Shown: positions 236-26,609 of the stretch, piece after piece
Layout of the letters: every line of letters starts with the position of its first letter
How positions within the stretch are numbered: the stretch's first letter is position 1
Assembly (NCBI GenBank): GCA_002704915.1
Contig: PAIP01000068.1
Location: 1 to 64,000, forward strand
Length of the DNA: 64,000 bases
Direction of reading: 5' to 3'
Source of the DNA: Parvularcula sp.
GTDB lineage: Bacteria; Pseudomonadota; Alphaproteobacteria; Caulobacterales; Parvularculaceae
Position numbers and translations under genes: made by a program
The notes under the pieces: model-generated
The model's input: only the letters and a program-made list of their open reading frames with translations
The model's database searches: none
What the model was told of the DNA's origin: nothing

Positions 236-943
236 ATGTTGAAACGCCTTTTCAGAAGCCGCCCCGCCATGCAGGCCGCCGCGTGGCTGATCGGGACCTA
301 TATTGGCCTCGTCTACGCGACCTCCCGGTGGACGCTCCAGGGTTACGATCACGTCGAAGCGGCCCTGAAAGACGGCAAGGGCGTCATCCTCGCTTTCTGG
401 CATGGGCGGCTCCTGATGGCCGCCGCCGTCCGGAAACAGACCGACGCCCGCGTCTTCATGCTGATCTCGGCGCACCGCGACGGGGAGATTATCGCCCAAG
501 GCGTCTCGCGCTTCGGCGTCGAATTCATCCGCGGCTCCGCCGCCAATCCGAAAAAACCCGGAAAGAACAAAAGCGGCGCCTCGGCCATCGCCCAGATGGC
601 CGCCGCGCTTCGGGAAAACGCCATTGTCGGCTTCACCCCGGACGGCCCGCGCGGCCCCGGGGAGACGCTGAAACCGGGCGTGATCCGCCTCGCCCAGATG
701 AGCGGCGCCCCGATCATTCCCGCCGCCTATTCAGTCTCCCGCGGCAAGCGCCTTTCCACCTGGGACAGGTTCCTTCTGGCCGCGCCCTTCTCCAGGGGCT
801 ATTACGTCGCGGGCGCGCCCATCACCGTGCCGGCGGAGGCGAGCGGCGAAACGCTGGATCGCATTCGCGCGGATGTCGAAGCCGCGCTGATCGCCGTCAC
901 GCGCGAGGCCGATGCGCTTGCGGGCAGAAAAACAGAAGACTGA
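236..943 (+). CDS. DUF374 lysophospholipid acyltransferase-like protein
   Basis: A 235-residue protein of the DUF374 family, a branch of the PlsC/LpxL acyltransferase superfamily. It opens with an amphipathic/hydrophobic segment, followed by a FWHGRLLM block that corresponds to the acyltransferase box I region, then the conserved FTPDGPRGP motif. The family typically sits directly upstream of waaA, as here, which suggests a role in lipid A or outer-membrane lipid assembly; the substrate is not established by sequence. The ATG at 236 is preferred over the in-frame TTG at 218 because AGGA lies about 11 bases before it and the TTG has no ribosome site. Eight bases separate it from waaA. Confidence 0.85.
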   Translation: MLKRLFRSRPAMQAAAWLIGTYIGLVYATSRWTLQGYDHVEAALKDGKGVILAFWHGRLLMAAAVRKQTDARVFMLISAHRDGEIIAQGVSRFGVEFIRGSAANPKKPGKNKSGASAIAQMAAALRENAIVGFTPDGPRGPGETLKPGVIRLAQMSGAPIIPAAYSVSRGKRLSTWDRFLLAAPFSRGYYVAGAPITVPAEASGETLDRIRADVEAALIAVTREADALAGRKTED

Positions 944-951
944 AACGCCGG

Positions 952-2253
952 ATGACGAAACCGCTTCGCGAACCTCTGGGCCTTAAAATCTACCGCACGG
1001 TGAGCCGCGCCGGCGCGCCCGTGGCGTCTTTCGCGCTGAAACAGCGCCTCAAAGCCGGCAAGGAAGATGCAGAGCGCATCGGCGAACGCCGCGGTGTCGC
1101 CGGGCGGGCGCGGCCTGAAGGGGCCCTGGTCTGGATTCATGGCGCCAGCGTCGGGGAATCCCTCTCCGTCATTCCGCTGGTGGAGCGCCTCCAGGCTGAC
1201 CGCCCTGATTACAATTTTCTCGTCACCACCGGCACGGTGACCTCGGCCAGGCTGATGGAGGAGCGCCTGCCTCCCGGTGCGTTCCACCAGTTCATTCCCC
1301 TCGATCACCCCGACTATGTGGAGGCGTTTCTCGATCACTGGCGCCCCGACGCTGCCCTCTTCGTAGAATCGGAATTCTGGCCGAACTTAATTCTGGCGGC
1401 GCGCAGACGCGCAACATTTATGGCGCTCGTCAACGGACGCGTGTCGCCGCGCTCTTACGAAGACTGGAAGCGCCAGCCCAACGCCATCAAATTCATTCTC
1501 TCCTCCTTCGACCTGATCATCGCCCAGGACCCGCAAAACGCAGACCGTCTTTCAACGCTCTCCGCGCGCAGCATCGAAACCTATGGCAATCTGAAATATG
1601 CGGCGCCGCCCCTGCCCGGCGATGAGGCGGCGCTTGAAAACCTGGCGCGCGATATCGGCGACCGCCGGCGCTGGCTCGCCGCAAGCACGCATCCGGGCGA
1701 GGAAGAGCCTGTTCTGAAAGCGGCGACCATTCTCAAGAAAGAGTTCCCCGACCTCCTCACCATCGTCACGCCGCGCCATCCCGGCCGCGGCGAAGAGGTC
1801 GCCGAACTATGCAGGGAGCAAGGGCTTTCCTGTGCGCTGCGGTCGAAGGACGAGCCGATTGCACCGGATACGGATGTTTATATCGCCGACACGCTGGGCG
1901 AGCTTGGGCTCTTTTATCGACTTTGCGACATCAGCTTTGTGGGCGGCAGCCTTGTGGACAAGGGCGGGCACAATCCGCTGGAGCCGGCGCGGCTCGGCGC
2001 GGCGATCCTTCACGGTCCCCATGTGTTCAATTTCGACGACACCTATCGCGAAATGCGGCGCACGGGCGGCGCGGCGCTGACCCGCAATGAGCGCGAGATC
2101 GCCTCCGCCGCGCGGCGCCTTTTCGCCGATAACAAGACGCGCCGGACCATGACCGAAGCGGCCCGGCAAATGGCGGCGGCGGGCGCCGAACGCATTCTCG
2201 GCGAGGTTTGCAACAGGATCGAACCCGCCCTGCCCGTCGAGACCCCTCACTGA
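952..2253 (+). CDS. waaA: 3-deoxy-D-manno-octulosonic acid (Kdo) transferase
   Basis: A 433-residue GT30 glycosyltransferase that adds Kdo from CMP-Kdo to lipid IVA at the inner membrane. The N-terminal half carries the GASVGES block containing the family's catalytic Glu; a VTTGT motif follows; the C-terminal half has the FVGGSLVDKGGHNPLEPA signature of WaaA and related GT-B donor sites. Length matches the family (about 420-430). The reading frame is open back to 283, but that extension overlaps the upstream gene in another frame, has no ribosome site and adds Arg-rich sequence, so the ATG at 952 is used. The stop overlaps the lpxK start by one base. Confidence 0.95.
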   Translation: MTKPLREPLGLKIYRTVSRAGAPVASFALKQRLKAGKEDAERIGERRGVAGRARPEGALVWIHGASVGESLSVIPLVERLQADRPDYNFLVTTGTVTSARLMEERLPPGAFHQFIPLDHPDYVEAFLDHWRPDAALFVESEFWPNLILAARRRATFMALVNGRVSPRSYEDWKRQPNAIKFILSSFDLIIAQDPQNADRLSTLSARSIETYGNLKYAAPPLPGDEAALENLARDIGDRRRWLAASTHPGEEEPVLKAATILKKEFPDLLTIVTPRHPGRGEEVAELCREQGLSCALRSKDEPIAPDTDVYIADTLGELGLFYRLCDISFVGGSLVDKGGHNPLEPARLGAAILHGPHVFNFDDTYREMRRTGGAALTRNEREIASAARRLFADNKTRRTMTEAARQMAAAGAERILGEVCNRIEPALPVETPH

Positions 2254-3194
2254 TGCGAGAACCATGGTTCTGGCGGAGCGAAACGCTCGCGGCCCGAAGC
2301 ATCCGCATGAGCCTCGCGCCGGCGGCGTTTCTTTATCAGGCGGGGTATAAAACCCGCCTTGCACTAACGAAGCCGGCGCGCGCGAGCGTTCCCGTGATCT
2401 GCATCGCCAATGCGACGCTCGGCGGAACCGGCAAGACGCCTTTCGCCATGCTTGTCGCAGAGCTCCTCAAAGTAGAAGGCGTCACCCCTGTTTTTCTGAC
2501 CAGGGGCCATGGCGGCGCCGAAAAGGGACCGCTTCTCGTCGATCCTGACAAACACGACGGTTGTGATGTCGGCGACGAAGCGCTCTTGCTTGCGAGAAAA
2601 GCGAAAACCATCGTGTCTCGCGACCGCCCGGCGGGGGCCGCGCTGGCCGTGCAGCACGGCGCAGACGCGATCATCATGGATGACGGCTTTCAGAACCCGA
2701 CGCTGCACAAGGATTTCTCCATCCTGCTGATCGGCGCCGGGGACGAGAAAGGCGCGCTCTTTCCCGCCGGCCCGTTTCGCGAGCGCCTCGACGAAGCCAG
2801 ACGCCGCGCGCAAATGATGGTGGCCATGGGCCCCGAAAAAAACGGCGCCGATTTCCGGGCGTGGCTCGAACCCGTCTCGCCCGCGCCGGAGCGGGTCATC
2901 GCCTTCGCCGGGATCGGCAAGCCGGAGAAGTTTTTCAAGACGCTGGAAGAGGCAGGCTATGAGCTGGCGCAGCGCATCGGCTTTCCCGATCACCATGTTT
3001 ACACGCAAGCCGAAGAGCGCTTCCTCGCCCGCGAGGCGCGGCGCGAAAAAGCGCGGCTTATCTGCACCGAAAAGGACGCCGTTAAACTGAGCGCCGATTT
3101 CCGCGCCGAGGTGATGACGCTCGCCGTCCGGATGCGCGCCGACGACACGCCCTCATTGAAGCGCCGCCTGATGGCCGGTATCAACAAAGCATGA
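2253..3194 (+). CDS. lpxK: Tetraacyldisaccharide 4'-kinase
   Basis: A 313-residue LpxK, which phosphorylates the 4' position of tetraacyldisaccharide-1-phosphate to give lipid IVA at the cytoplasmic face of the inner membrane. It begins with the characteristic MREPWFW, then an N-terminal amphipathic/membrane-anchoring stretch, then the Walker A-like GGTGKTPF. The FLTRGHGG block and the IIMDDGFQNPTLHKD motif (Asp-Asp of the active site) are intact. The ATG at 2253 shares its A with the waaA stop codon, so the two are translationally coupled; an earlier in-frame ATG at 2208 would overlap waaA and add sequence foreign to the family. Confidence 0.95.
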   Translation: MREPWFWRSETLAARSIRMSLAPAAFLYQAGYKTRLALTKPARASVPVICIANATLGGTGKTPFAMLVAELLKVEGVTPVFLTRGHGGAEKGPLLVDPDKHDGCDVGDEALLLARKAKTIVSRDRPAGAALAVQHGADAIIMDDGFQNPTLHKDFSILLIGAGDEKGALFPAGPFRERLDEARRRAQMMVAMGPEKNGADFRAWLEPVSPAPERVIAFAGIGKPEKFFKTLEEAGYELAQRIGFPDHHVYTQAEERFLAREARREKARLICTEKDAVKLSADFRAEVMTLAVRMRADDTPSLKRRLMAGINKA

Positions 3195-4153
3195 CCGTGG
3201 CGCAGACCGCAAACGATCTTGAAGACATCCCGCTGCCCGAACGGCGCGACCGGCCGGTGACCTTGCTGCACAGGCTGGAGCTTGCCGTCGTCGCGGCGTT
3301 GGACGGCCTGTTCAGGGTCTTGGGCGTCGGCCTCGCCTCCGCCGTCGCCGGCAAGTTCATGCGTTATGCCGGGCCGCTCATTCGCCCCGTCTCGCGCAAG
3401 GCCGAACGCAATCTCGCGCTTGTCTATCCCGACTGGACGGAGGCGCAGCGCCGTAAAACCGTTAAAGACGTCTGGGAGAATGTCGGCCGCACCGCCGCTG
3501 AATTCGCGCATCTTGAGACCCTGCGGGAGCCGGAAAACAATCCCCGGCTCGAGATCATCGGCAAGGAAAAACTGGACACGATCCGCGAAAGCGGCAAGCC
3601 GGTGATTTTCTTTTCCGGCCATCTTGCAAACTGGGAGCTTGGCGCCGCGGTTCTGCAGCGGCTCGGGCTGAAATACGCTTTCGTCTACCGCGCGGCGAAT
3701 AATCCGTTAACGGATGAATATATCATCAAGGTGCGCGCGCGGTCCATGACCCGTTATCAGATCCCGAAGGGAAAGCGCGGCGGGCGGGCGCTGGTGGACG
3801 CGCTGAAAGGCGGGCGGTCGCTCGCCATGGTGGTCGATCAGAAACTGAACAGCGGGATTTCCGTTCCCTTTCTCGGGATCCCCGCCATGACGGCGCCGGC
3901 GCCGGCGCGCCTTTCCCTTAAATACGACGCGCCGCTGGTGCAGATCAGCATTGAACGCCTCAAGGGCGCGCGATTTAAGCTGACCGTGCGCGACCCCGTG
4001 GACTTCGAGGCCACCGGCGACGCCGCCGCCGATACACAGGCCCTGACCCTCAAGATCAACGAAGCGCTGGAACGCGACATCCGCGCCAATCCCGGCCAGT
4101 GGCTATGGTTTCATCGCCGCTGGCCGAAAGAGCTTTACACAAAGAGCGGTTAG
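3191..4153 (+). CDS. LpxL/HtrB-family lipid A acyltransferase
   Basis: A 320-residue lysophospholipid/lipid A acyltransferase of the LpxL/HtrB family, expected to transfer a secondary acyl chain from acyl-ACP onto Kdo2-lipid IVA. The active-site H-x4-E motif is seen as FSGHLANWEL, and the later GKRGG and MVVDQK blocks match the family's second and third conserved boxes. It starts with an ATGA overlap on lpxK, so it is the last gene of a four-gene lipid A operon. Which acyl position it acts on (LpxL, LpxM or XL type) cannot be read from the sequence. Convergent with the Kazal/bfr genes; the two stop codons overlap. Confidence 0.88.
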   Translation: MTVAQTANDLEDIPLPERRDRPVTLLHRLELAVVAALDGLFRVLGVGLASAVAGKFMRYAGPLIRPVSRKAERNLALVYPDWTEAQRRKTVKDVWENVGRTAAEFAHLETLREPENNPRLEIIGKEKLDTIRESGKPVIFFSGHLANWELGAAVLQRLGLKYAFVYRAANNPLTDEYIIKVRARSMTRYQIPKGKRGGRALVDALKGGRSLAMVVDQKLNSGISVPFLGIPAMTAPAPARLSLKYDAPLVQISIERLKGARFKLTVRDPVDFEATGDAAADTQALTLKINEALERDIRANPGQWLWFHRRWPKELYTKSG

Positions 4154-14749: not shown

Positions 14750-15811
14750 ATGACCGACGCATCGGACTTCACCGGATTTCAAGAAACGCCGGAGCATCTG
14801 AAATTCGATGAGGCCGCACTCGACGCCTATATGCGCGAGAATGTGGAAGGCTATACGGGCCCGCTGACCGTCAAGAAGTTCAAGGGCGGGCAGTCGAACC
14901 CCACCTATCTTTTGACGACGCCGGCGAAGAAATACGTTCTGCGCCGCAAGCCGCCGGGCAAGCTTCTCCCCTCGGCTCATGCGGTCGACCGGGAATACCG
15001 GGTAATGACCGCGCTTGGAGGCGAAGATTTCCCTGTGCCGAAAACCTATGCGCTCTGTGAGGACGAAAGCGTCGTCGGCACCACCTTCTTCATTATGGAT
15101 TTCGTCGAGGGCCGCATCTTCTGGGACGCGAGTCTGCCCGAGGTGGAAAAAGATGACCGCAAACCGCTCTATCACGCGCTGATCGACACGCTCGCCGATC
15201 TTCACAATGTGGATTACAAAAAGGCGGGGCTCAATGATTACGGCAAGCCCGGCAACTATTTCGAGCGCCAGATCGGGCGCTGGTCGAAACAATATGAGGC
15301 GGCGGAAACCTCGACCATTGAAGAGATGAACAATCTCATGAAATGGCTGCCGACGGCGATCCCCGACGACGATGCGACTTCCATCGTTCACGGCGACTAT
15401 CGTTTCGACAACGCCATCATGCATCCAAGCGAGCCGAAAGTGCTGGCCATGCTCGACTGGGAATTGTCGACGCTGGGCCACCCCCTCGCCGACTTCACCT
15501 ATTTCCTGATGGTCTGGCACATGCCGGCGAGTGTGCGCGGCGGCCTCATGGGCGCCGACCTTGAGGCGCTCGGCATTCCTACCGTCGATGAAGCGGTGGC
15601 GCGCTATTCGAAACGCACGGGCCGCGACGGCGTGCCGGATGTGGATTTCTGCCTCGCTTACAACATGTTCCGCCTCGCCTCGATCATTCAGGGCGTTTAT
15701 GCGCGCTCGCTACAAGGCAACGCGTCGTCTCCCGCCGCAAAAGAAATGGGCGCGCAGGTGCAGCCCCTCGCCGCGCTGGCGTGGAGTTTTGCGCAGAAGG
15801 CGGGGGCTTAA
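14750..15811 (+). CDS. APH-fold phosphotransferase (ACAD10/11 N-domain-like)
   Basis: A 353-residue aminoglycoside-phosphotransferase-fold kinase. Visible motifs: KKFKGGQSNPTYLL (nucleotide loop), VLRRKPPGKLLPSAHAVDREY (ATP-binding Lys and Glu), the catalytic loop IVHGDYRFDN and the metal site LDWELSTLGHPLAD. This subgroup is linked to fatty-acid and hydroxyacyl metabolism through fusion to acyl-CoA dehydrogenases (ACAD10/11), rather than antibiotic resistance. Start at the ATG with AAAAGGACC upstream; it lies 29 bases after the GDT1-like gene. Confidence 0.9.
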   Translation: MTDASDFTGFQETPEHLKFDEAALDAYMRENVEGYTGPLTVKKFKGGQSNPTYLLTTPAKKYVLRRKPPGKLLPSAHAVDREYRVMTALGGEDFPVPKTYALCEDESVVGTTFFIMDFVEGRIFWDASLPEVEKDDRKPLYHALIDTLADLHNVDYKKAGLNDYGKPGNYFERQIGRWSKQYEAAETSTIEEMNNLMKWLPTAIPDDDATSIVHGDYRFDNAIMHPSEPKVLAMLDWELSTLGHPLADFTYFLMVWHMPASVRGGLMGADLEALGIPTVDEAVARYSKRTGRDGVPDVDFCLAYNMFRLASIIQGVYARSLQGNASSPAAKEMGAQVQPLAALAWSFAQKAGA

Positions 15812-15827
15812 TTACAACTTGGCCGTC

Positions 15828-15950
15828 GGCTTTTCCTCCCCCGTTTACGGGGGAGGTGTCTGCGAAGCAGACGGAGGGGGTGGACTCTTGCCCCCATCGG
15901 TCGCTTCGCGACCACTTCCCCCGCAAGCGGGGGAAGAGAATGTCACTCTT
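15828..15950. repeat. Intergenic palindromic GC-rich repeat element
   Basis: A mosaic of short hairpins: CCCCCGTTTACGGGGG, TCTGCGAAGCAGA, GGTCGCTTCGCGACC and CTTCCCCCGCAAGCGGGGGAAG. Such strings of nested hairpins between genes are typical of the dispersed non-coding repeats of Alphaproteobacteria. It lies between the convergent APH-like kinase and flippase genes, so it may double as a transcription stop. Shorter related stretches appear near 10330-10362 and 31639-31663. Confidence 0.75.
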
Positions 15951-17271
15951 TCAACAACGCCACTAACAACACCCCAATCAAAACCGCCCACCCCGTCATG
16001 ATGGCGAGCGGCGCGGCGATGACGCCGACGGCCGTCAGCATCAGGAATAAAAATCCGAGATGCGCAATTGCCGCCGCCACTTGTCCCGTCAGCGCCCACC
16101 CTGCGCGCCCGCGCGCGAGCACCGCTGACTCAAGCCCCAGCGATGCAATCTGGAAGAGCTGCGCAAAGGCCATGAGCGCGATCAGCGGCGCCGCGGCGGC
16201 GAACTCTTCCCCGCCGACGCCCACCGCCAGCGGACGGCGGAGCAGGAAATACAATCCGACAATGGGCGCCGCGATAAGGATCGCCGTGCCGATGGACTGG
16301 AACGCCACTCTCGCCATCTTGTGGCGGCCCTCTTCCGCCTCGATCTTCGACAGCTCCGGAAAGCTCGCATGGTTGAACATGGTGACAGGCTGCGCCAGCA
16401 CATTGGCGAGATTGTAAGCGAGCTTGAACAACCCCGCCGCCGCCGGGCCGAGAACGCCGCCGACGATCAGGATCGGCACATTATTGTGCATGAGATCGAT
16501 GGAGCTTGAGAGATTGGTCTTGATCATGAAGGGAAGCCAGGCCTTGTCGGGCTTCCTGTCGGTCTCGCCGAAAATCTGGGGCGTCTGGTTTTTCTGTCTA
16601 AGCTCGCGCCAGCCGAGCACCCAGAGGCTCGTCCCATGCACAAAGACGCTGGCGATCCAGACCACGAGAAAAGCGCCGAGGTTCGCTTCGGTGAGCCACA
16701 GAATAATCGCGCCGATGAAACGGATCAGCGGCATCAGGGTCAGTTGCCAGCCGAGCAGTTTGAACTTGTCGTAAAGCCGCAACACGCCTGTGGGCGTGGC
16801 GGCGATCAAAAACGGCGTTGCAAAACAATAAACGGTGATGAGCCCGCGAATATCCTCCGACCACCCGAAGGCGCGCGCCGCAAAGGGCGCAAGGCCGAGC
16901 GCAATCGCCACCGAAGCGACGCCGCTTAAAAGGTCGAGACGGATCGTATAGCGCAATAGATCTTTCAGCCGCGCTTCGTCGCCGGCGCGGATCAAAGGCG
17001 CCCCGAAGCGGATCACCGCCTGCCAGGATTGAAACCGCGCGACGCCGGCGATCACCTGGGCGTAGGCGTGGGCGAGGACAAGCGCGCCCATCCCCTCCGG
17101 CCCCAGCCCGCGGGCCGCGATGGCGAGATAGGCGAGACTTAACACCCCGCCCGCAGCCTTGCCCGAGAGAAGCTTGCCGGCGTTCGCCATGATGCGGCGC
17201 ACGGGCCCGCCTGCCAGATTTCCCTCGCCGGATTTTCCGGGCGCTGCCTTCTGCGTTTCGCCGATTGTCAT
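15943..17271 (-). CDS. Oligosaccharide/lipopolysaccharide flippase, Wzx-like (MOP superfamily)
   Basis: A 442-residue polytopic membrane protein, about 12 predicted helices, with the family entry KAAGGVLSLAYLAIAARGLGPEGMGALVLAH that matches Wzx/RfbX-type flippases (loss of the lipid anchor, a layered helix 1 and a GLGPE-G loop). It should move an undecaprenyl-linked glycan or another lipid-linked intermediate across the inner membrane. Start at the ATG of MTIGETQK; a TTG at 17313 is an alternative. It diverges from the ATP-grasp/nucleotidyltransferase pair across a 158-bp gap. No glycosyltransferase genes sit beside it, which is unusual for a Wzx. Confidence 0.85.
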   Translation of the reverse strand: MTIGETQKAAPGKSGEGNLAGGPVRRIMANAGKLLSGKAAGGVLSLAYLAIAARGLGPEGMGALVLAHAYAQVIAGVARFQSWQAVIRFGAPLIRAGDEARLKDLLRYTIRLDLLSGVASVAIALGLAPFAARAFGWSEDIRGLITVYCFATPFLIAATPTGVLRLYDKFKLLGWQLTLMPLIRFIGAIILWLTEANLGAFLVVWIASVFVHGTSLWVLGWRELRQKNQTPQIFGETDRKPDKAWLPFMIKTNLSSSIDLMHNNVPILIVGGVLGPAAAGLFKLAYNLANVLAQPVTMFNHASFPELSKIEAEEGRHKMARVAFQSIGTAILIAAPIVGLYFLLRRPLAVGVGGEEFAAAAPLIALMAFAQLFQIASLGLESAVLARGRAGWALTGQVAAAIAHLGFLFLMLTAVGVIAAPLAIMTGWAVLIGVLLVALLKE

Positions 17272-17313
17272 TTGCCGCCCAAATGCTTCTTCCGGTTGTG
17301 AAATACCGTTCAA

Positions 17314-17342
17314 TTGACGGTGTTTTCAATCAGTCTTATATG
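17314..17342 (+). promoter_or_regulatory. Putative sigma70 promoter for the ATP-grasp/nucleotidyltransferase genes
   Basis: TTGACG (17314-17319) and TATATG (17337-17342) with exactly 17 bases between them, pointing at the gene starting at 17430. The box matches are good for this GC-rich genome and the stretch is AT-rich. Confidence 0.5.
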
Positions 17343-17429
17343 CGGATCAGCCCCGGGGGAAGGAAATGCGCGGTCCGCCGGGGTTTTCTCGTTTCGGGTT
17401 CTCCCCTTGGCGCGCTTTCTGGACGTTTC

Positions 17430-18497
17430 ATGCAACACGGACCGCTGCTCCGCCTCGCAGACGCTGAAAAGAAGCGTCTCAATCTACTATATCTCGCCAA
17501 ATGGGCGGAAGCCGACGGCACGCCGGACGCCAAAGACGGCACGCACGCCACCTATCACGCCGAGATGCGCGACACGATGCGCGCGCTCGGCTTCAATGTG
17601 GAAGCGGCGAGCAAATTCGATCGTCTCTATACAAATCATAATTACGACTTCTGCGTCACCATGCTCAATCGCGGCGGGTTCACCAACAGCGAAATGCTTG
17701 GCCCGCTTTTGTGCGCCTATAACAATATTCCGTTTTTCGGCGCCTCGCCGATCCTGCGGGGGCTTGGCGACGACAAACATCTGATGAAACTCGCCGTGCG
17801 CGCGCGCGGCGTGGCGACGCCGGATTCGATGATCATCCGCCGCGGCGGCATGGCTATTACCGAACCGGACTTCGAATGGAAATCGCTAATTGTCAAACCC
17901 AACGCCAGTTCCGCTTCCTGGGGCATCGGCGCCTATGACAACTGGGCGGAGGCGAAAGCCCATGCGGAGCGCCTCCTCAGCGACGGCCATGACGTGATCA
18001 TCGAAAATTTCGTCGACGGCTATGAAATCGCCGTGCCGATTATCGGCTCCAACGGCCCCTGGGTGCTGCCGCCCATGCGGTTCTATGTGGATGACCCCCG
18101 CGCCATCCGTTCCTATGAACAAAAGCGCCATCTGGCCGCCAAGGATACGGTCAAGCTCGTTCCCCTGCCAGCCGGCCCCTTACGCGACCGCGTCGTGGAG
18201 GCGAGCCTTAAGCTCCTGCCGGAGGTCTGGCCGTGCGATATCGGGCGCGTCGAACTGAAATATGATGAAAAAACCGACACCCTCAACTTCATCGAGATCA
18301 ATCTAAGCTGCAATCTGTGGTCAAAAAAGGCGACAGCCCTTTCCGCCGCCACCATTGGCGTGACCCACCCGCAACTGCTTGAAACCCTGCTTTGCCACAG
18401 CCTCCGCCGTCAGGGCGTCGTTGCGCCGGAGAGCGTCTTGGAATATGCGATAGAGCCTTCGGAACAGGACGGACAAGGCGAGGCTCATGAGTGGTGA
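17430..18497 (+). CDS. D-Ala-D-Ala ligase-like ATP-grasp protein
   Basis: A 355-residue ATP-grasp protein. An N-terminal Rossmann-like part leads to IPFFGASPILRGLGDDKHLMK (the Gs/DDK block of D-Ala-D-Ala ligases), then KPNASSASWGIG (ATP loop), IIENFVDGYEIAVPI (hinge Glu) and ELKYDEKTDTLNFIEINLS (metal-binding Glu and Asn). The final NPNPG motif of true Ddl is altered to INLSCNLWSKK, so the acceptor or product is probably not D-Ala-D-Ala. The ATG overlaps no other gene; ribosome site weak. The end overlaps the nucleotidyltransferase start by 11 bases, implying coupling. Function unknown; probably joins a carboxylate to an amine or hydroxyl group. Confidence 0.82.
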   Translation: MQHGPLLRLADAEKKRLNLLYLAKWAEADGTPDAKDGTHATYHAEMRDTMRALGFNVEAASKFDRLYTNHNYDFCVTMLNRGGFTNSEMLGPLLCAYNNIPFFGASPILRGLGDDKHLMKLAVRARGVATPDSMIIRRGGMAITEPDFEWKSLIVKPNASSASWGIGAYDNWAEAKAHAERLLSDGHDVIIENFVDGYEIAVPIIGSNGPWVLPPMRFYVDDPRAIRSYEQKRHLAAKDTVKLVPLPAGPLRDRVVEASLKLLPEVWPCDIGRVELKYDEKTDTLNFIEINLSCNLWSKKATALSAATIGVTHPQLLETLLCHSLRRQGVVAPESVLEYAIEPSEQDGQGEAHEW

Positions 18498-19308
18498 CAA
18501 TAAGAAGAAACAATATCATTTCGTCATTATGGCGGCGCAGCGCACAGGCGTCGTCAATCCACTGGCGGAGGCCGCGGGCGTAAGCCACAAATGCCTTATC
18601 AAGATCGACGGAAAATCTCTCATCGAACGCACGCTCACGGAGGTCGTTGCAAGCGGGCTCGCGCGCCGCATCAGCGTCTCCATCGAAGACGATGCGCCCC
18701 TGAAAAGCGACAGCTATGTGCGCGGTCTCATGGACGGCGGTTTTGTGCGCTTTGTGAAATCGACCGACAATCTTTTCGACAGCGTCGCAGCGGCGCTCGC
18801 GCAGGATGACGACCTTCCCGCCATCATCACCACCGCCGACAACGTGCTGGTGACGGCGGAGATGTATCGTTATTTCTGCGAGCATGCGGAGAGCTATGAC
18901 GCGTCGGCGGCGCTGTGCAGCCGCGAAACGCTGGAATCCAAATATCCCGGCGGGCAGAAGCGCTTCCACCGTTTCAAGGACGGGCAATATACGAACTGCA
19001 ACACATTCGCGATCATGAACCGCGAGGCGGTTGCCGCCGCCGAAGTCTTTCGCTCGGGCGGACAGTTTCTAAAGGCGTCGCGGCTGCGCGCGATCAAGTC
19101 CTTCGGCCTGATCAACGCCATCGCCTATAAGAACGCCTGGTTCACGCTGGACGGCGGTTTTAAGGGACTGAGCCGCAAATTCGGCGTCAATATCGCTCCG
19201 GTCCTGATGCCCTTCCCCGAAGCGCCGATCGATGTCGATAATGAACACACGCTCGAATTCGCAACCCGCATCATCAAGGATCGAAAAGCGGAGGCGGAGA
19301 GCCAATAA
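18487..19308 (+). CDS. MobA-like nucleotidyltransferase
   Basis: A 273-residue GT-A-fold NTP transferase. The N-terminal loop MAAQRTGVVNPLAEAAGVSHKCLIKIDGKSLIERTL (seen in parts) is the nucleotide-binding signature in an altered form: the usual GGxGxRM is replaced by AAQRTG, but the downstream Lys and the GKSLIERTL segment are kept. ITTADNVL supplies the metal-binding Asp position. A likely role is activation of a phosphorylated sugar or alcohol with CTP, GTP or UTP. It is coupled to the ATP-grasp gene and ends before a bidirectional terminator. Confidence 0.82.
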   Translation: MSGDNKKKQYHFVIMAAQRTGVVNPLAEAAGVSHKCLIKIDGKSLIERTLTEVVASGLARRISVSIEDDAPLKSDSYVRGLMDGGFVRFVKSTDNLFDSVAAALAQDDDLPAIITTADNVLVTAEMYRYFCEHAESYDASAALCSRETLESKYPGGQKRFHRFKDGQYTNCNTFAIMNREAVAAAEVFRSGGQFLKASRLRAIKSFGLINAIAYKNAWFTLDGGFKGLSRKFGVNIAPVLMPFPEAPIDVDNEHTLEFATRIIKDRKAEAESQ

Positions 19309-19449: not shown

Positions 19450-20166
19450 TTAGGCCGTTTTGCGACGACGCGACGCGAAGCCGAGGCCGGCAAGGCCGGA
19501 CAGCAGCAGCGGAAGCGCGGCCGGAACCGGAACTTCGCCGACAGTCATCTGGGCAATCGTAAAGCCAGCGCCTTCGGTGACGGCAACAAGCAGGAAGTCC
19601 ATGCCCGTGCCGAGAAGCGCGATGTTGTCAATCGCGGTAATCGTCGCGATGAACGCGCCATCGATGTAAAGATCGAAGTCGCCGCAAGGTCCTTCAGAAC
19701 CGAAAGTGCTGCAGTTGGTGTCACCGCCAGCATTGAATTCGACATTGGTCACCGTTTGCTCTTCGTCGAACACGAAGCGGATAGCTTCCATGGCGTCGAA
19801 TTGCGTTTGGTCATCCGAAGAATCTGTTTCGGACCATGCGCCAAGACCGGAGTCCGCAGGATTGATGTCCTGGATCAGGCGCGTCGCCGTATTGGCGGAC
19901 AAGTCGTCAAAGTCGCTGACGCCAGCATATGCTTTGACATTCAGATTGACGCCTTCCAGCGAATAATCGAAGCCTTCAGCATCATCGATTGTGCAAAGGT
20001 CGTTGCTCGTACCGCCAGAGGTGGCGCAAGAATCATCGACATTTCCAACATTGGTCGGCGTTACGTTGAGACCATCGCCTTTAAAAACAAAGGTCGTCGC
20101 GTTCGCCGGAGCCGCCATGAAGCCGGCTGCAATAGCTGCGGCTGCAAGATAGCGAAGGGTTTTCAT
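19450..20166 (-). CDS. VPLPA-CTERM/PEP-CTERM sorting domain exported protein
   Basis: A 238-residue secreted protein. An N-terminal signal peptide (MKTLRYLAAAAIAAGFMAAP, cleaved after ANA) is followed by an acidic, Asn/Asp/Gly-rich beta domain with several paired Cys, and a classical tripartite C-terminal sorting signal: VPVPAALPLLLSGLAGLGFASRRRK (Val-Pro-x-Pro-Ala, hydrophobic helix, Arg cluster). Such proteins are processed by exosortase-type enzymes and usually act at the surface or in exopolysaccharide. No exosortase gene is in this window. Start at 20166; a frame extension to 20265 is not signal-like. Confidence 0.92.
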   Translation of the reverse strand: MKTLRYLAAAAIAAGFMAAPANATTFVFKGDGLNVTPTNVGNVDDSCATSGGTSNDLCTIDDAEGFDYSLEGVNLNVKAYAGVSDFDDLSANTATRLIQDINPADSGLGAWSETDSSDDQTQFDAMEAIRFVFDEEQTVTNVEFNAGGDTNCSTFGSEGPCGDFDLYIDGAFIATITAIDNIALLGTGMDFLLVAVTEGAGFTIAQMTVGEVPVPAALPLLLSGLAGLGFASRRRKTA

Positions 20167-20528
20167 AGGTGTAGTCCCCCACTCTGAACTAAATCCGGAA
20201 AACGCCGGAAATCGCATCGTTAAACGTTTTTTAACGACGGGGGCAAATCTCCCAGTTTTATTCAAATTGTCAATTCAATTAGGACAGATTAACCCAAAAA
20301 AAATGCCGCAGCGCAACATACTCGCGCAATTAAGAATTTTCATTCCCGTATAGCGTGTAAATTACCAACCTCATTAACCATAAATATCTGCAAAACGGTA
20401 ATTTTTCCAATTTCGCGCCTCCTCGGGCGGACGCCGATTCCCGTCTGGCGATTGCCGGGGGCGGACGGGGCGGATAGACCTGAAGCGCCGTCGCCTTTCC
20501 CGTCGCATCCTTGTGAGGAGCCTCTCCC
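20167..20528. promoter_or_regulatory. AT-rich 362-bp divergent intergenic region
   Basis: Separates the VPLPA-CTERM gene (minus) from the amidohydrolase lipoprotein (plus). It is visibly AT-richer than flanking DNA between about 20215 and 20410. It holds a GTTAAA-N5-TTTAAC inverted repeat at 20219-20235 and, on the minus strand, a TTGACA (20268-20273 region) without a convincing -10. No credible gene is seen. Probably the promoters for both genes, with the inverted repeat as a candidate operator in the CTERM leader. Confidence 0.45.
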
Positions 20529-25192: not shown

Positions 25193-25534
25193 TCAATAAT
25201 GAATGATGATGCGGGCGCTGGCCGCCGCCGCAGGAATCACGATTGTTTCCGTCAAGGTCACGCCGCAACGCAGCACGGCCATATCGCGGCCGTCTTCATC
25301 CGTGGCGCGGCCATCCCGCCCTTCGCCGCAATCGAGAAAACTGCCGCGCTCTTTTTCGACCACGTAAAGATAGTTGGGCGGGGCCGCGACATAGGCCCGA
25401 TCCGTAATCCCGCCTGACCCTTCGCCGATGGAAACGGCGCCGGCGCTGTTATCCGCCGCCGACGCCGGCAGGGTTAACGCGGCCCATAAGCTCGCGGCAA
25501 TGATGTTAACGGTTTGTTTACGAACGGCACACAT
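25193..25534 (-). CDS. Small exported protein of unknown function
   Basis: A 113-residue protein with a signal peptide (MCAVRKQTVNIIAASLWAALTLPASA) and a short mature domain with two Cys (FLDCGEG and VLRCGVT). No family recognised. It ends ten bases from the convergent NTR-like gene and diverges from the ATP-grasp gene at 25668. No good ribosome site is seen, so the exact start is uncertain. Confidence 0.6.
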   Translation of the reverse strand: MCAVRKQTVNIIAASLWAALTLPASAADNSAGAVSIGEGSGGITDRAYVAAPPNYLYVVEKERGSFLDCGEGRDGRATDEDGRDMAVLRCGVTLTETIVIPAAAASARIIIHY

Positions 25535-25667
25535 GCGCGGCTTGTCGCAAAAGCCGCGCCGTTCATCGAAACATCACGGTTTCCGCCCTTCACGGCCATT
25601 TTATTTCCTTGTCATCGCCCGAAAAGCCATGTTCATTGCCGCGGTTGGGGCGGTTCGGGCGGAACGT

Positions 25668-26609
25668 ATGTCGATTTTCGGCGAGTTTAAAATTAACGGT
25701 AATCAGCTTGTCGCGACCGAGACAGGCGCGCAGATTCCTTTGAACGCCGGCTTTGCAAGAGACGCCCTTCGCATTGCGAGTTTTGTCTGGCTCGTAAACG
25801 CACTGCGCGCGACGCGGATCATGCGCGGGCGCGAACCGCGGGCGAAGATTTCCTTCTTTCCGAAAAAACCGCGCTCCTATTACGCCATATGGCCCGTCTG
25901 CCAGCTTGCGGATATCAAAATCGTCGACAACCCGGAAGAAGCCGATCTGCATTTCTATTTCGAGGACTGCGAATTCCTGACCGCGCCCCGCCTGGCGCCG
26001 ACTGAAAAACCCGCTTTCAATGTCGACTGCTTCGACATCAGGAAAAGCGTTGTCGCGCGCGTCTTCGAAGAAGTGTTCGGTTACAGTTTGAAGCTCGATC
26101 CTACGACGCATGACGGTGTGATGGTCGAAAAATCCGAACTCAACGGCAAGCATGACGGCCGCATGATCGAAGGACCGATCCCGGCGCCAAAGCCGGGGCA
26201 TGTCTATCAGCGCATTATCGAAAACACCTTTGACGGCAAGGAGCATGTGGACATCAGGACGCCCATCGTGGGTTGCAAGACGACGCCTTATGTCTTCCTG
26301 AAAAAACGCGCCCGGGCCCTGCGCTTCACCAATGACAATCATCGCGTGGACCTTGCGCCGATCGACGCCATGCTGTCGCGCCGCGAACAGGAAAAGATCG
26401 CCGCCTTCGCCGCCGCCATGCATCTCGATTATGGCGGGCTCGACATCCTGCGCGACCGCCATGACGGACGCATTTACATTGTCGACGCCAACAAGACCGA
26501 TATGGGCCCGCCCGCCGCCATGCGCGCCCAGGACAAGCTAACCGCCATGCGGGCGCTCGCCGACGCCTTCGCAGCCGCCATCGACGCAAAGCTGGCGGAA
26601 CAGCACTGA
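25668..26609 (+). CDS. Divergent ATP-grasp-like protein
   Basis: A 313-residue protein resembling the ATP-grasp fold at its C-terminus: HLDYGGLDILRDRHDGRIYIVDANKTDMGPP has the pattern strand, Asp, strand, Asp/Asn that supplies the metal ligands. The N-terminal half (FFPKKPRSYYAIWPVCQLADIKI) is not a familiar domain. Homologues of this type are seen in Alphaproteobacteria as hypothetical proteins. It is the second ATP-grasp gene in the window but is not a close relative of the one at 17430. Start placed at MSIFGEF; an ATG at 25629 is possible. Function unknown. Confidence 0.65.
   Translation: MSIFGEFKINGNQLVATETGAQIPLNAGFARDALRIASFVWLVNALRATRIMRGREPRAKISFFPKKPRSYYAIWPVCQLADIKIVDNPEEADLHFYFEDCEFLTAPRLAPTEKPAFNVDCFDIRKSVVARVFEEVFGYSLKLDPTTHDGVMVEKSELNGKHDGRMIEGPIPAPKPGHVYQRIIENTFDGKEHVDIRTPIVGCKTTPYVFLKKRARALRFTNDNHRVDLAPIDAMLSRREQEKIAAFAAAMHLDYGGLDILRDRHDGRIYIVDANKTDMGPPAAMRAQDKLTAMRALADAFAAAIDAKLAEQH

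Follow-up and report, generated by a model that had tools for sequence, protein, structure and literature searches.

The window analyzed here, a 64,000-nucleotide stretch of Parvularcula sp. DNA (contig PAIP01000068.1), carries three adjacent genes that we read, with modest confidence, as an alternative head-group module and flippase of a phosphosphingolipid pathway whose genes are scattered over the genome: a MOP-superfamily flippase of the CC_1166 family (15943–17268, minus strand) diverges from an ATP-grasp enzyme resembling D-alanine–D-alanine ligase (Ddl; 17430–18497, plus strand), which is followed by a MobA-fold nucleotidyltransferase (18487–19308, plus strand). The basis observed consists of gene families, genome content, co-occurrence and conserved catalytic residues; that the pair acts on a sphingolipid head group, on which substrates and in which order of steps, we infer. 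By family and context, the flippase and the nucleotidyltransferase family are well supported as parts of the sphingolipid pathway, and the ATP-grasp enzyme is moderately supported. An earlier note on this DNA had proposed a lipid-linked envelope component made by an uncharacterised pathway. The first part is supported, with the qualification that a phosphosphingolipid is likelier than a glycan, because both the flippase and the nucleotidyltransferase are of families found in the ceramide phosphoglycerate (CPG) locus (PMC11324152). The second was too strong: most parts come from a partly characterised pathway, and the new part is the ATP-grasp enzyme with its variant of the nucleotidyltransferase, referred to below as clade B.

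Members of the flippase family were found in 59 of 200 genomes of the order at E 0.001, with strong matches in 49. Of 21 flippase loci, 15 contain at least two other sphingolipid-locus families, the neighbors being CpgB, CpgC, Spt, CerS and LptFG in varying sets; the six loci below this number are the window and five relatives that share the same chromosomal slot (see below). Outside this slot, the five flippases closest to that of the window (51–60% identity) all lie beside CpgB, four of them also with CpgC, and identity to the flippases of Caulobacter-type loci is 28–35%. CC_1166 is described as a potential flippase in Caulobacter (PMC11324152), and the window protein is of this type. Assignment to the Wzx O-antigen flippases was rejected, as the WZX_like NCBIfam model gave 19.5 bits for a cut-off of 300 and the neighbor families are those of sphingolipid loci; an O-antigen context was rejected on the neighbors in the 21 loci. 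These same results make it very improbable that a Wzx-like flippase exports a lipid-linked glycan made or decorated by the pair, even though the protein matches polysaccharide flippase models of Pfam and a Kdo transferase gene lies about 14 kb upstream.

The nucleotidyltransferase family, present in 50 of the 200 genomes, accompanies the flippase: 47 genomes have both, and in 45 the two genes lie within 20 kb of each other (gap of at most 1.5 kb in 27, 1.5–5 kb in 3 and 5–20 kb in 15; different contigs in the other 2). Note that ten genomes whose flippase matches were all weak are not included in these counts, and that the near flippase copy of genome G134 is a fragment (E 1.6e-8). The 20-kb regions around these genes contain varying sets of Spt, AcpR, CerR, AasR, CerS, LptF/LptG, CpgB, CpgC, CpgA, CpgD and a metallophosphoesterase. 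Among genomes picked for closer comparison, CpgC was found in 16 of 17 with the nucleotidyltransferase versus 0 of 5 without it; in the one that lacked it (G184), a CpgB fragment lies at the contig edge.

A tree of 40 nucleotidyltransferases separates clade A (31 sequences, including the CC_1153 type) from clade B (9 sequences, including that of the window) with a support of 100/99. About 14 further family matches, all at E 7e-22 or weaker, are not in this tree, and the presence of clade B in 8 of the 200 genomes refers to the sequences placed in it. The window enzyme is of the same family as CC_1153 but of the sister clade; CC_1153 mutants fail to form CPG2 (PMC11324152). It comprises 273 residues and matches NTP_transf_3 (PF12804; 38.1 bits, cut-off 27). 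R19, K35, D118, D249 and D251 are invariant in the family alignment, and the window protein retains the active-site R, K and D described in CpgD and its relative. The sequence AAQRTG, which the earlier note had taken for a changed nucleotide-binding loop, is present; it is, however, typical of the family, since A-[AG]-x-R occurs in all 20 rows of the alignment, whether from clade A or clade B, and cannot be regarded as a peculiarity of this protein. A role as MobA/MocA molybdenum cofactor transferase was rejected (matur_MocA, 13.8 bits versus a cut-off of 186.45). The structure model computed from an alignment of the window protein with its counterpart in L003, a Parvularculaceae assembly, was unusable (mean pLDDT 44.5).

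The window's own genome (G000; a draft of 4.5 Mb in 85 contigs, 98.95% complete) encodes much of the CPG2 pathway. The ceramide synthesis genes Spt, AcpR, AasR, CerR and CerS form a full cluster on one contig (C64, locus L144), and CpgB and CpgC adjoin on another (C29, locus L143, 8995–10200 and 10200–11174). CpgD, the CDP-glycerate synthase, gave only weak partial matches in this genome, the best covering residues 3–78 at E 6.5e-11, and the window nucleotidyltransferase was not among the matches to CpgD at E 0.001. The CC_1158 phosphoesterase was not matched in the draft, nor was a CpgA-type CDP-alcohol transferase. Since CpgA and CpgD were both looked for without a proper counterpart being found, the window genes do not qualify as the CPG2 pathway itself.

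The ATP-grasp enzyme is related to, and distinct from, Ddl. It matches Dala_Dala_lig_C (PF07478; 45.4 bits, cut-off 24), and its profile matches 34 PDB sequences at E 1e-5 (best E 1.2e-15), each of which carries the name of a D-alanine ligase or VanA-type relative. Yet identity with D-Ala-D-Ala ligase was rejected, the family model scoring 59.2 bits versus a cut-off of 245.65. The acceptor loop of Ddl carries the motif N-x-x-PGM, which is replaced here by NLSCNLWS (within NLSCNLWSKK); N-[LM]-[SN]-CNLWS is found in all seven aligned sequences of the family. At the position of a conserved Ddl D, the family has an invariant E, and this change, along with the loop substitution, suggests an ATP-dependent ligase that acts on an acceptor other than that of Ddl. 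The profile found no relative on viral contigs; PHROGs gave no match, and 19 plasmid records were matched, all below 60% identity and none over 80% of the query. A structure model obtained as for the nucleotidyltransferase was again unusable (mean pLDDT 37.4).

Strong matches to this enzyme (E<1e-70) are rare, and they coincide with clade B: both occur together in six of six genomes out of the 200. At E 0.001 the search reached 149 genomes, of which 143 matched only at 1.7e-11 or weaker, with about 25% identity, and were treated as Ddl background. In five of the six genomes the ATP-grasp and clade-B genes overlap, by 11 bp in the window (18487–18497, ATGAGTGGTGA) and by 4, 4, 14 and 14 bp in G108, G024, G086 and G022, which suggests translational coupling. 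The sphingolipid clusters of G108 and G024 contain a flippase, a HAD, an ATP-grasp and a clade-B gene in direct succession, and encode a clade-A enzyme as well. The co-occurrence proposed in the earlier note as a check holds for the ATP-grasp enzyme with clade B and for the flippase with the nucleotidyltransferase family, and only partly for the trio, which occupies a single locus in three of the six genomes (G000, G108 and G024, not G045, G086 or G022) and in L003. A class sample of 385 genomes, for which at most five candidates per genome were scored, yielded ATP-grasp matches at E 1e-25 in six genomes, strong in two: the window's genome and G521. In G521, which has Spt at 50% identity, a clade-B-like enzyme (48% identical to that of G022; outside the tree) lies one gene from the ATP-grasp gene. 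The gene in between (locus L173, 10549–11976) encodes a product judged by eye to be pyridoxal phosphate (PLP)-dependent, with no Pfam, NCBIfam or PDB match, and an exosortase gene lies about 6 kb off. The four class genomes with distant ATP-grasp relatives gave no full-length Spt match above 36%. At two loci (L174, 8104–11245; L175, 3521–6664), two divergent distant relatives flank a single gene, in genomes devoid of a full-length Spt match.

Several observations weigh against assigning the three genes to a phosphosphingolipid head group. In G086 and G022 the full CPG2 cluster and the pair are on separate contigs; the G022 pair comes directly after a 'sugar-transfer associated ATP-grasp' (ATPgrasp_ST) gene, past which a GT4 gene lies on the opposite strand, a polysaccharide-like setting. 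The ATP-grasp gene of G045 is about 0.9 Mb away from the flippase and clade-B genes, while G129 and G014, which have clade B, gave no strong ATP-grasp match, an MmgE/PrpD-family gene lying beside the clade-B gene in both. The placement of the L003 enzyme in clade B is unsure because its branch is long (1.3). In the window's own genome, no CpgA-type enzyme that could attach the head group was found. No CpgB or CpgC match appeared in the 20 kb around Spt in G521, the one region of that genome covered for these two. Finally, Spt was found in 21 of 22 picked genomes, so that its presence says little in this order.

The settings of the pair in G086 and G022, together with the exosortase gene of G521, favor a different role, in which the pair would decorate a capsule or exopolysaccharide with an amide-linked or nucleoside diphosphate-activated substituent and would adjoin a sphingolipid flippase only through reshuffling of the slot. 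We consider this unlikely: it has to be set against the location of the pair within the sphingolipid cluster of G108 and G024, after the flippase and HAD genes, the sister relationship of the window's clade to the sphingolipid-locus clade, and the lack of a polysaccharide cluster among the 38 window open reading frames scanned. Less probable still is a route like that to the Campylobacter O-methyl phosphoramidate, in which the ATP-grasp enzyme would make a phosphoramidate or phospho-amino-acid type of substrate that the nucleotidyltransferase activates, giving a nitrogen-containing head group. The enzyme is of the Ddl ligase kind and not of the dikinase kind to which the Campylobacter glutamine kinase belongs, and the PLP-type gene of G521, whose position between the two genes would suit such a route, had no counterpart in any of nine further genomes searched. 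The tight pairing of ATP-grasp and MobA-fold genes speaks for it, as does the naming of the phosphoglutamine cytidylyltransferase Cj1416 as a relative of CpgD (PMC12275187).

The preferred reading, that of an alternative head-group module, draws further on the slot beside the flippase. Six related genomes have the same flanking genes, with PurD, a hydrolase, an APH-type kinase (14753–15811, plus strand, in the window) and the flippase on one side, and a VPLPA-CTERM surface protein (19450–20265, minus strand) and an amidohydrolase on the other. The contents of the slot are of five kinds: ATP-grasp with clade B in the window; ATP-grasp, then PrpD and clade B, both on the other strand, in L003; clade B alone in G045; nothing in G129; and HAD, clade A and a conserved family, c23, in G104 and G040. 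The c23 family was called a glycosyltransferase by eye only, since the one member tested had no Pfam or NCBIfam match. A tree of the flanks pairs G129 with G104 (100/100) and L003 with G045 (99/99), so that both halves include a genome with the HAD/clade-A content. Conversely, the ATP-grasp enzymes of the window and L003 are 82% identical despite belonging to different halves, and the window clade-B enzyme is 63% identical to that of G045 versus 35% to that of L003. The simplest account of these differences is exchange, or repeated gain and loss. As the same slot in relatives holds a set comprising HAD, clade A and a putative glycosyltransferase, the ATP-grasp/clade-B pair probably serves as an alternative cassette for the head group. 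A bolder proposal, which we put forward tentatively, is that a fixed slot by a conserved flippase is where Alphaproteobacteria swap cassettes for phosphosphingolipid head groups, in the way that O-antigen genes are exchanged in other bacteria, and that the ATP-grasp/clade-B cassette makes an undescribed amide- or peptide-like ceramide head group.

The following sequence of steps would be consistent with these assignments. The AasR/CerR/AcpR/Spt/CerS cluster would supply ceramide, and CpgB and CpgC would then phosphorylate and activate it; the kinase activity of CpgB is known in Caulobacter, where the role of CpgC is only proposed. The ATP-grasp enzyme may spend ATP in coupling a carboxylate, for example that of a glycerate-type precursor of the head group, to an amine by way of an acyl-phosphate. 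The clade-B enzyme coupled to it may use CTP or another nucleoside triphosphate to activate a phosphorylated unit of the head group, for attachment to ceramide phosphate. The divergent CC_1166-type flippase would transfer the finished lipid across the inner membrane. An anionic sphingolipid of Caulobacter contributes in part to survival when lipopolysaccharide is absent and controls sensitivity to polymyxin (PMC12275187, PMC11324152). Should head groups be swapped as cassettes, surface charge and chemistry could vary without a change in lipopolysaccharide, and a comparison of cassettes could test the roles of CC_1153 and CC_1166, which are open steps of the Caulobacter pathway.

The layout of the locus agrees with the earlier description, the three reading frames, the divergent flippase and the 11-bp overlap all being confirmed. 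The flippase (441 residues; Polysacc_synt_3, PF13440, 42.6 bits for a cut-off of 23) likely starts at the ATG at 17268. The longest frame of the ATP-grasp gene opens at a TTG at 17265; we took the ATG at 17430 as its start (355 residues) because the L003 relative likewise opens with MQHGPL. Between the divergent genes lies the string TTGACG-N17-TATATG (17314–17342, plus strand), previously called a promoter. The string is indeed there, and it is kept in L003 while its flanks diverge. A consensus scan called no site at 17314–17342, since its rule demands a T at the last position of the –10 element, and a partly similar stretch in G129 precedes no ATP-grasp gene, so we grade the element as promoter-like only. 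The pair has a GC content of 58–59% (72–74% at third codon positions, GC3), within or near the range of its neighbors, and thus bears no sign of recent import.

Other features of the window and of related loci were recorded. The statement that the window lacks a glycosyltransferase proved wrong: a WaaA-type Kdo transferase is encoded at 283–2253, in a row of ordinary lipid A genes with LpxK and a lipid A acyltransferase (283–4153). No Wzy-like match was obtained among the 38 window frames given to Pfam, out of 147 of at least 120 residues, many of them spurious. The VPLPA-CTERM sorting-signal protein, found beside the slot in all six genomes, has a GC3 below that of its neighbors. The frame at 25428–26609, present in five of the six, weakly matches an S6--glutamate ligase model (E 0.002) and is possibly another ATP-grasp-like protein. 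An MmgE/PrpD-family gene adjoins the clade-B gene in L100 (10300), L116 (10518) and L003 (11073), two of the three without a strong ATP-grasp match. An aspartyl/asparaginyl hydroxylase-family gene, which could be an acyl-chain hydroxylase, lies near sphingolipid genes in G108, G024 and G118 (L033, 11409–12251; L034, 12297–13127; L115, 4985–5800).

The open-licence literature searched held no paper linking ATP-grasp to sphingolipid or ceramide (the sole candidate concerned plant phytic acid, by its title), none joining ATP-grasp, nucleotidyltransferase and flippase in Alphaproteobacteria, and none on CCNA_01211 or on phosphosphingolipid in Parvularculaceae; in the main text of PMC11324152 the term 'ATP-grasp' does not occur. 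The closest known system is the CPG/CPG2 locus of Caulobacter crescentus, CC_1152–CC_1168 (PMC11324152, PMC12275187). One locus of our sample, L112, reproduces its described gene order, except for the CpgB frame, which was not picked by our choice of open reading frames; its CpgD starts with MQPVKTL and ends with EAEAV, matching the ends encoded by the published primers, the nucleotidyltransferase holds the place of CC_1153 and the flippase that of CC_1166. The window's genome resembles this system in having the flippase and nucleotidyltransferase families, Spt, CerS, CerR, AcpR and AasR, CpgB and CpgC. It differs in that the genes are spread over three contigs, the searches revealed neither CpgA nor CC_1158 nor a close CpgD, the nucleotidyltransferase belongs to sister clade B and an ATP-grasp enzyme is added. 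With Ddl, the latter shares the C-terminal ATP-grasp domain and the aligned metal-site E and N of FIEIN, and departs from it by the invariant E in place of D, by CNLW in place of the PGM-type loop and by a score of 59 bits for a 246-bit cut-off. Like CpgD, a CTP:phosphoglycerate cytidylyltransferase, the nucleotidyltransferase is an NTP_transf_3 protein with R, K and D active-site residues, but it belongs to a different subfamily; its closest solved structure by profile is that of TTHA0179, a hypothetical protein (PDB 2dpw, E 4.5e-20).

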